A stretch of 39,685 nt of DNA, from the NCBI RefSeq assembly GCF_000466405.1, contig NZ_KE952966.1:70659-110343 (forward strand), in the 5' to 3' direction. The notes under the pieces are model-generated. The model was not told the DNA's origin. It did not search any database and saw only the letters and a program-made list of their open reading frames with translations. Source of the DNA: Atopobium sp. oral taxon 810 str. F0209. Lineage in GTDB: Bacteria > Actinomycetota > Coriobacteriia > Coriobacteriales > Atopobiaceae. The translations under genes were made by a program, and so were the position numbers. Of this stretch, positions 1 to 39,685 are shown piece by piece (the stretch's first letter is position 1; each line of letters starts with the position of its first letter).

Positions 1-36
1 AATGGCGCATATCGGCTCTCAGAGCGAAGATGGGTC
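1..36 (+). repeat. Right end of dispersed inverted-repeat element (copy A, cut by window start)
   Basis: The first 36 bases match the right terminal repeat of the complete element at 9175-9406 and of the copy at 39463-39685, apart from a few substitutions. Only the right arm is present, because the window begins inside the element. Short reading frames through it (beginning MAHIGSQSE) arise from the repeat and are not taken as genes. Confidence 0.8.
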
Positions 37-9174: not shown

Positions 9175-9406
9175 GACCCCTCCTCGCTCTGAGGGCCGAT
9201 ATGCGCCATTTAGGGTCGTTGTTGGATAAGATATTTATATTTGAAATGCAGACCTAGGCCGTCTACCAGCGAATTTGTTAAAACCAAAAGATGCGGCAAA
9301 ACACGGGAAAACAGCCGCCTTCCAAAACAGCTCTTCTACCAGCAGGAATGCTGCAACACAAATTTCAGCAAATGGCGCAGATCGGCCCTCAGAGCGAAGA
9401 GGGGTC
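9175..9406. mobile_element. 232-bp MITE-like element with 37-bp terminal inverted repeats (copy B)
   Basis: The left arm (9175-9211, beginning GACCCCTCCTCGCTCTGAGG) and right arm (9370-9406) are inverted copies identical at 35 of 37 positions. The 158-base interior is AT-rich on the left and contains TCTACCAG twice. The copy at 39463-39685 has the same arms and a similar interior, including the shared block AAAACACGGGAAAA. No transposase frame fits inside. No convincing target-site duplication is visible. It resembles a non-autonomous element mobilised from elsewhere; a conserved structured RNA or protein-binding repeat is the alternative. Confidence 0.75.
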
Positions 9407-18722: not shown

Positions 18723-19757
18723 ATGAAGAATTATGGACGTGTATGTAGTGTCACAATGGCAGGTCTTTTGCTCGCAGGTCAGTTGACCATGGCGGGTGTT
18801 ACTCCTGCTTATGCGGCTGATTCCGCAACGGATAATTCCGATACTCCCGCTGTTGTTAAAGACGTGGAAAAGCAGGTTGAGAAGCTTCAGAAGGATGGCG
18901 TTACGCAGGATCCTAAGAAGCCAAACACCTCTGGTAGCGAGAAGTCTCTTGAGGATCTTGTCAAGAGTATCAATAAGGCACTTGGCACCAAAGATGACAA
19001 ACCCATTACTGATACCAATGCCACACTTGATTCTCTTGAGGGGAAGATCAAAGACTTCATTGAGAAGACCAAGACTGATGAGCCTAACCTCTCTGGCAAA
19101 GATAAGACCATTGAGGAGCTTGCGAAGAGTATCAATACGTTCTTAAAGAGTGCCGATAAGCCCAAGCTTGATGGTCACGATTCGACGCTTAAAGATCTTG
19201 CAGGCAAGCTGAACAAGCTTCTCAAAGCAGATGATGAGAAGAAGCCTGAGGGCGAACCCGAGGATAACAAAAAGCCCGAGGACAATAAACCCGAGACCCA
19301 ACCTGAAGAGCAGAATCCCGAGGCTGATACCAAGCCAGAAGATCAAAAAGATCCTGAGGATGAAACAAAGCCTGAGACCGATCCCAAGAACAACGAGCAA
19401 AAGGATCCTGAGGACAATAAGAAGCCTGAGACCGATCCAAAGGATCAGAAGAAGCCCGAAGAGAAGAAGCCTGAGGCAAAGAAACCTGAAACCAAGAAGC
19501 CAGAAACCAAGAAGCCAGAGACAAAAAAGCCCCAAGCTAAAAAGCCTGAGGTAAAGAAGCCTCAAGCTAAGAAGCCCCAAGCCAAGAAATCTGATACCAA
19601 GAAATCTGACACCAAAAAGGCTAAGAAGACTAAGAAGGTTATCAAAAAGAAGGGTTTGCCCCAGACTGGTGATGCAGGTGCAGCAGCCGCTGGCTTGACT
19701 ACTCTGCTTGGCGCTGGTGCTATTGCTGCTGGTGCTCTTACTCGCAAGAAGCACTAA
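18723..19757 (+). CDS. Sortase-anchored (LPQTG) surface protein with KKPE-rich stalk
   Basis: 344 residues. A signal peptide ends near AYA (residue 31). Residues about 45-175 hold several related helical units of roughly 30 residues with the pattern K-T/S-L-x-x-L-x-x-x-I/L-N-K-x-L-K. Residues 175-305 are a low-complexity stalk of Pro, Glu, Lys, Asp and Thr repeats (KKPET, KKPQA). LPQTG lies at 312-316, followed by a hydrophobic segment and TRKKH, a complete cell-wall sorting signal. GGAGG stands eight bases before ATG 18723. It is monocistronic, closed by a terminator. Sortase would link it to peptidoglycan. The ligand or role is unknown; the sortase gene is not in this window. Confidence 0.88.
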   Translation: MKNYGRVCSVTMAGLLLAGQLTMAGVTPAYAADSATDNSDTPAVVKDVEKQVEKLQKDGVTQDPKKPNTSGSEKSLEDLVKSINKALGTKDDKPITDTNATLDSLEGKIKDFIEKTKTDEPNLSGKDKTIEELAKSINTFLKSADKPKLDGHDSTLKDLAGKLNKLLKADDEKKPEGEPEDNKKPEDNKPETQPEEQNPEADTKPEDQKDPEDETKPETDPKNNEQKDPEDNKKPETDPKDQKKPEEKKPEAKKPETKKPETKKPETKKPQAKKPEVKKPQAKKPQAKKSDTKKSDTKKAKKTKKVIKKKGLPQTGDAGAAAAGLTTLLGAGAIAAGALTRKKH

Positions 19758-39462: not shown

Positions 39463-39685
39463 GACCCCTCTTCGCTCTGAGAGTCGATGTGCGCCATTTT
39501 AGGATGATATTGAATAAAATATTTATACTTGAAATATAGACACAGCTCTTCTACCGTCAAGTTTGTGAACCTTACAAGATGCGACAAAACACGGGAAAAT
39601 AGCTGCCTTTCAAAATAGGTCTTCTACCAGCAGAAATGCTGCAGTACAAAAACGGGGCAATGGCGCATATCGGCCCTCAGAGCGA
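39463..39685. mobile_element. Copy C of the inverted-repeat element, running off the window
   Basis: Left arm 39463-39499 (beginning GACCCCTCTTCGCTCTGAGA) and right arm from 39659 match copy B with a few substitutions. The interior is similar in length (159 against 158 bases) and shares several blocks, but differs more than the arms do. The last ten or so bases fall outside the window. The stretch 39311-39462 to its left has no gene. Confidence 0.75.

Follow-up and report, generated by a model that had tools for sequence, protein, structure and literature searches.

The host genome (G000), placed in the genus Olegusella of the class Coriobacteriia, contains a genuine 232-bp dispersed repeat, which is non-coding and hairpin-shaped. 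A complete copy (copy B) lies in the window, that is, in the whole stretch of 39,685 nucleotides analysed (G000:C34:70659-110343, on contig 34). Palindromes related to it have unrelated ends yet one common internal box, which, on the sequences compared, is an unusual feature. The reading we prefer, to which we give about half of our confidence, is that the element is a mobile palindrome of MITE/REPIN-like habit, which is non-autonomous and depends for its movement on a putative enzyme supplied in trans, and that selection for mobility keeps its arms, spacing and box.

Copies in the window and in the host genus

Copy B is bounded by two inverted arms of 37 nt each, 158 nt apart, which agree at 35 of 37 positions as the preliminary description had reported. 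The features of the window are as follows.

9175 to 9211, plus strand: first arm of copy B, GACCCCT.TTCGCTCT followed by six variable nucleotides and CGAT.TGCGCCATT
9212 to 9369, minus strand: interior of copy B, 158 nt, aligned without gaps with eight other copies
9262 to 9270, minus strand: internal box 2 of copy B, GCTGGTAGA, a direct repeat of box 1 at a distance of 73 bp (sequence and alignment columns 137-145)
9297 to 9311, minus strand: central block of copy B, TTTTCCCGTGTTTTG (plus strand CAAAACACGGGAAAA), halfway between the boxes (sequence and alignments)
9335 to 9343, minus strand: internal box 1 of copy B, GCTGGTAGA on the minus strand (sequence and conserved alignment columns 64-72)
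9370 to 9406, minus strand: second, inverted arm of copy B, 35/37 identical to the first
1 to 36, minus strand: arm belonging to one more copy, which is truncated and starts beyond a scaffold gap to the left of the window
39463 to 39685, minus strand: copy C, ended at the window edge by a 10-N scaffold gap; 232 bp after the overlap is merged
39463 to 39499, plus strand: first arm of copy C (sequence and arm-pattern match)
39623 to 39631, minus strand: internal box of copy C, GCTGGTAGA (sequence)

With up to three mismatches allowed, the arm pattern has four matches in the window, against none in 100 shuffles. The peptide reading MAHIG corresponds to ATGGCGCATATCGG within the arm. Copy C is 79% identical to copy B across 223 nt. 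Each end of the window abuts a 10-N scaffold gap that lies inside a copy; copy C therefore runs on beyond the window, and both its cut end and the remnant at 1-36 are assembly effects. The same arms had been noted at copy C and at 1-36, and they are there, but what was taken for an arm surviving at 1-36 belongs, as its right arm, to another, truncated copy with its remainder left of the gap. Likewise, the interior of 158 nt given for copy B stands, whereas the 159 nt given for copy C becomes 158 nt once the gap overlap is merged. Contigs C2, C9 and C32 of the same assembly also terminate inside copies, and the repeat accounts for the assembly breaks at the two window ends. Elsewhere in the window, at 19230-19520, an open reading frame carries coding repeats rich in proline, glutamate and lysine (AAGAAGCCTGAG units).

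The earlier count of three copies was too low. A genome-wide search found about 14 in the fragmented host assembly, whole, gapped or truncated, and exactly four in Olegusella massiliensis KHD7 (G004), one genome being compared per species. Among 396 Coriobacteriia genomes, an arm with up to three mismatches is present in these two and in no others, and across a collection of 84,980 species the exact arm pattern matches Olegusella only. The arm was absent from the viral contigs searched, and the phage and plasmid records searched held no match to the element. A phage, plasmid or viral origin was rejected for want of a match; the box alone occurs in one viral contig.

Constant length, conserved interior and differing arms

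Intact copies are all 232 bp long, with one of 231 bp, and two scaffold-gapped copies also come to 232 bp with the duplicated overlap removed. Nine copies with pairwise identities of 59-92% can be aligned without any gap. Orthologous intergenic DNA of G000 and G004 gave an indel:substitution ratio of 17 to 314, by which the 241 interior substitutions counted by parsimony would be accompanied by about 13 indels; none was observed (P about 2e-6). The arms are 93% identical across copies, with the variable hexamer left out, versus 62% for the interior. Inside the element the nine-copy alignment contains two conserved direct boxes, GC(A/T)GGTAGA, 73 bp apart, and a conserved TTTTCCCG(G/T)GTTTTG midway between them. 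Blocks shared among the interiors had been noticed before and do exist, although AAAACACGGGAAAA is a subfamily form of the conserved CCCGGG-centred block. Some copies have matching middle hexamers in their two arms and several others have non-complementary ones, so that perfect pairing is unnecessary at the hexamer.

A sequence-model search with the element yielded homologues in two other Olegusella genomes (G001 and G003). The arms of family X (GACCCTGACTTGACATTTTGACCCTTTTGTTGCAAA) and of family Y (GACCCCTCTTCGAAGATATGACCCTTTTGAGTCAT) differ from those of the window family (W) and are internally complementary. The homologues in G001, G003 and another genus are 228-231 bp long and have the same interior, in which a CCCGGG centre lies between two GCAGGTAGA boxes separated by about 73 bp. 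Family X has 15 arm pairs in G001 with start-to-start distances of 176-178 bp, and the 14 units measured span 229-231 bp; G003 lacks X arms. Their arms are 90% identical; the interior value of about 50% is an underestimate because four X copies were aligned in the wrong orientation, which leaves lengths and arms unaffected. Units of 230 bp with a third kind of arm occur in G035, from another genus. Counting the other genus and the four Olegusella genomes together, total length stays within 228-232 bp, and copies have inverted arms of about 36 bp that are complementary to each other. In the 20 elements of families W, X and Y, 92% of the cells in the arm columns are paired, and 158 cells hold double changes, against a shuffled mean of 57 and 14-39 in slid controls. 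The comparison of the three families indicates that complementarity, length, boxes and centre are common to them, while the arm sequence is not.

An ordinary MITE would be a remnant of insertion sequences whose transposase-bearing copies were lost, with the fixed length inherited from a single founder. The size, the inverted ends and the intergenic scatter fit such an origin, and the boxes could be a host-factor site comparable to the one for integration host factor within Correia elements (PMC10969869). However, subfamilies only 60% identical have accumulated zero indels, relatives keep the interior but change the ends, which is the opposite of MITE decay, and the arm is found in Olegusella only, never around a gene. 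We regard this origin as unlikely. The MITE label of the preliminary description holds in part: inverted ends, dispersal, a non-coding and intergenic nature, site turnover and inversion agree with it, whereas a missing parent element, the lack of a consistent target duplication, the constrained interior and homologous interiors with unrelated arms do not.

The other possibility raised at the outset was a structured RNA or protein-binding repeat. A structured RNA or cis-regulatory hairpin would be transcribed, its arms paired and its boxes bound by a conserved protein or RNA partner. The arms do covary between families, the boxes and their spacing are conserved, and some terminators of tRNA genes in G004 also have GCAGGTAGA as their stem. 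Copy B folds far beyond its shuffles (z of -8.6 and -8.9), though the inverted arms alone suffice for that. Against an RNA, the six middle arm nucleotides are non-complementary in several copies, the interior pairs show no convincing covariation, Rfam 15 gave no match, there is no consistent gene or orientation context, and positions are not kept between the sister species. An RNA or protein-binding function is in our judgement improbable.

Turnover of positions and the proposed mode of movement

Copies are intergenic and non-coding, their neighbours are ordinary unrelated genes without a common theme, and many lie downstream of or between genes. G000 and G004 share two orthologous loci with three elements (C9:22929/1344034 and the C21 pair/736427+738044). 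The remaining copies occupy non-orthologous sites; C21:26071 is closest to G004:539921, which is a different place. Divergence at the two shared loci compared is 11/148 in the arms, 35/316 in the interior and 34/489 in the flanks. The arms have thus diverged much as the flanks have, which gives no indication that they are held constant site by site and does not suggest a site-specific function.

No consistent target duplication is evident by eye in the flanks. The longest flanking direct repeat averages 3.97, versus 3.41 +/- 0.16, a weak excess of short repeats, and in a few cases the flank is itself palindromic, with the copy lodged between its halves. The G000/G004 comparison gave no clean empty sites, the element-free sites being mosaics of other repeats. 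The right flanks of G000:C6:2219 and G000:C9:52 share about 36 more bases (GATCGCAG.TATATTGCGCC) that are absent from G004, which suggests a larger mosaic repeat. Only the C21 pair in G000 is recent enough for current movement, and its 99% identity suggests gene conversion, which could explain the pair.

At C21:34020/736427 the flanks are identical and the whole unit, hexamers included, is inverted between the species. Were the arms the sites of a site-specific recombinase, the interior might flip and alter neighbouring transcription, and inversion has been reported for Correia elements (PMC10969869). But the other shared loci have unchanged orientation, no recombinase gene was found beside the copies examined, and the many copies downstream of or between genes would flip without a promoter role. 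Homologous recombination between the arms suffices, and the in-place inversion could stem from such ordinary recombination. An invertible switch is, on this evidence, very improbable.

A gene of 405 amino acids is flanked by two 232-bp elements in both species (G000:C21:34054-35646 and G004:C2:736655-738044) and is 94% identical between them. It has a weak REase-like match (MTES_1575, E 9e-4, below the cutoff), and the two flanking elements have opposite orientations in G000 but the same orientation in G004. A tie of the element to this gene or to a DUF4143 ATPase was rejected, as each is found at some loci only.

No transposase was found with the copies, in agreement with the initial observation, and no gene-bearing element with W arms was found in G000 or G004, nor one with X arms in G001. 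The idea that these ends also bound a larger insertion sequence was rejected: all W arms of G004 pair at 231-232 bp and the X units of G001 at 229-231 bp. A longer element with W arms was also not found in G000, where contigs break inside copies and the search is not fully closed. A RAYT gene (Y1, PF01797) was detected in none of the five Olegusella genomes, the control genomes being positive, and membership in the RAYT/REPIN system was rejected as the genus has no Y1 transposase. The outer ends of the palindrome read ACCC...GGGT instead of carrying a GTAG tag, and GGTAGA is internal. Near-identical ORFs that by eye look like IS110-type transposases lie at both ends of a G004 contig (G004:C2:359-1528 and 1754379-1755548); apart from these two, O. 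massiliensis KHD7 has nearly no multi-copy transposase genes.

Since RAYT is absent and no gene-carrying element has these ends, we propose a trans-acting enzyme of another kind. For the mobile palindrome that we prefer, this putative enzyme would recognise the boxes at their fixed spacing along with the paired arms, the latter read either as DNA ends or in a folded single strand, and would move or flip the unit. Selection for mobility would then preserve the arms, the boxes and their spacing and leave the remaining interior free to drift, and both arms may change jointly when a lineage gains a new recognition sequence. Such turnover of sites, combined with the preservation of ends, boxes and spacing, would be expected of a non-autonomous mobile element selected for mobility, as has been argued for REPINs (PMC3116915).

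The internal box and comparison with known repeats

With up to one mismatch allowed, a 23-bp form of the box, TTNGCAAAANNGCWGGTAGATGG, was matched in nine genera of the family (20 of 140 genomes), and the reversed pattern has no match. It is nearly missing from a phylum-wide sample (2 of 396 genomes, one of them outside the class). Eighteen of the 30 box loci examined lie within long inverted repeats (score of at least 15; the maximum in 30 control regions was 13). The arms of these repeats vary between species and the units range from about 80 to 230 bp. The 23-bp form thus appears as a mark of shorter palindromes with unrelated arms across Coriobacteriales.

O. massiliensis has further box-carrying palindromes, namely a 75-bp family, a CGTTGCAACC family and a GCCAAACGCCACGTTC family. 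The members of 74-76 bp number at least 15 in G004 (e.g. C2:65741, 346522, 1146654 and 1355213), with ends AGATGGTTCGAG...GAACCAT and interior AAAACCGCAGGTCAGATTTT; the same family adjoins several 232-bp copies in G000. Replication-strand bias was looked for in the 75-bp family of G004 and none was seen (9/15). Besides the 75-bp family, two box-carrying palindromic families, CGTTGCAACCTCAGGTTGCAACG (an inverted box pair) and GCCAAACGCCACGTTCTGTTTC repeats, are present at G004:C2:751766, 1081614 and 1097260 and at 582018 and 1069032. In the same species GCAGGTCAGA was seen 31 times, versus 2.9 for permuted words. The tRNA-gene terminators at G004:C2:146212, 148604, 868639 and 1496937 have GCAGGTAGA or GCAGGTCAGA as their stems, e.g. 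CACAAAAGACGCAGGTAGATGG-GATAGA-CCATCTACCTGTTTTTC. As the same stem word serves in some tRNA-gene terminators, the box enrichment may partly have another cause. The literature search on the box motif or on Collinsella repeats returned nothing relevant.

We put forward only tentatively a class of mobile palindromes across the order Coriobacteriales that would be set by the internal box TTTGCAAAAnnGCAGGTAGATGG and not by the ends. The arms would be freely replaced between lineages, with complementarity, the box and, in the 230-bp class, the spacing kept. For such a class, a so far undescribed enzyme acting in trans would have to read the box plus a hairpin of nearly any sequence.

REPINs are paired REP sequences moved by RAYT transposases in Pseudomonas and other bacteria (PMC3116915). 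The Olegusella element resembles them in its inverted, conserved hairpin ends, a less conserved spacer of preferred length, intergenic location, many copies, compensatory end changes and persistence as a within-genome population. It differs in its longer arms and 232-bp unit, compared with REPIN spacings of 71 or 110 bp, and while REPINs have a GTAG tag and a RAYT, the element has no terminal GTAG and its genus no RAYT/Y1. Its conserved internal box has no counterpart described for REPINs in the literature compared (PMC3116915).

Chunjie of Geobacter (178-235 bp) and Correia of Neisseria, for which inversion is reported, are MITEs (PMC10969869). They share with the Olegusella element a size below 500 bp, terminal inverted repeats, the lack of genes and an intergenic location. 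The element differs from them in that neither a parent insertion sequence nor a clear target duplication was found for it, its length is invariant at 40% divergence, and its ends are swapped from species to species around a retained interior. ERIC, RUP, BOX and similar repeats are dispersed imperfect palindromes of near-constant length, and we know of no mobilising enzyme for them. The Olegusella element is likewise a dispersed imperfect palindrome, unrelated to them in sequence, and differs in that its W arms are confined to Olegusella whereas its box is spread over Coriobacteriales.

The usual basis for grouping small palindromic repeats is their ends, since these are what the transposase is presumed to read. 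In the present elements, by contrast, the ends are species-specific and only the internal box and the length are carried over. If confirmed, the box would help to track down the mobilising factor and to annotate many unexplained repeats of vaginal and gut Coriobacteria.
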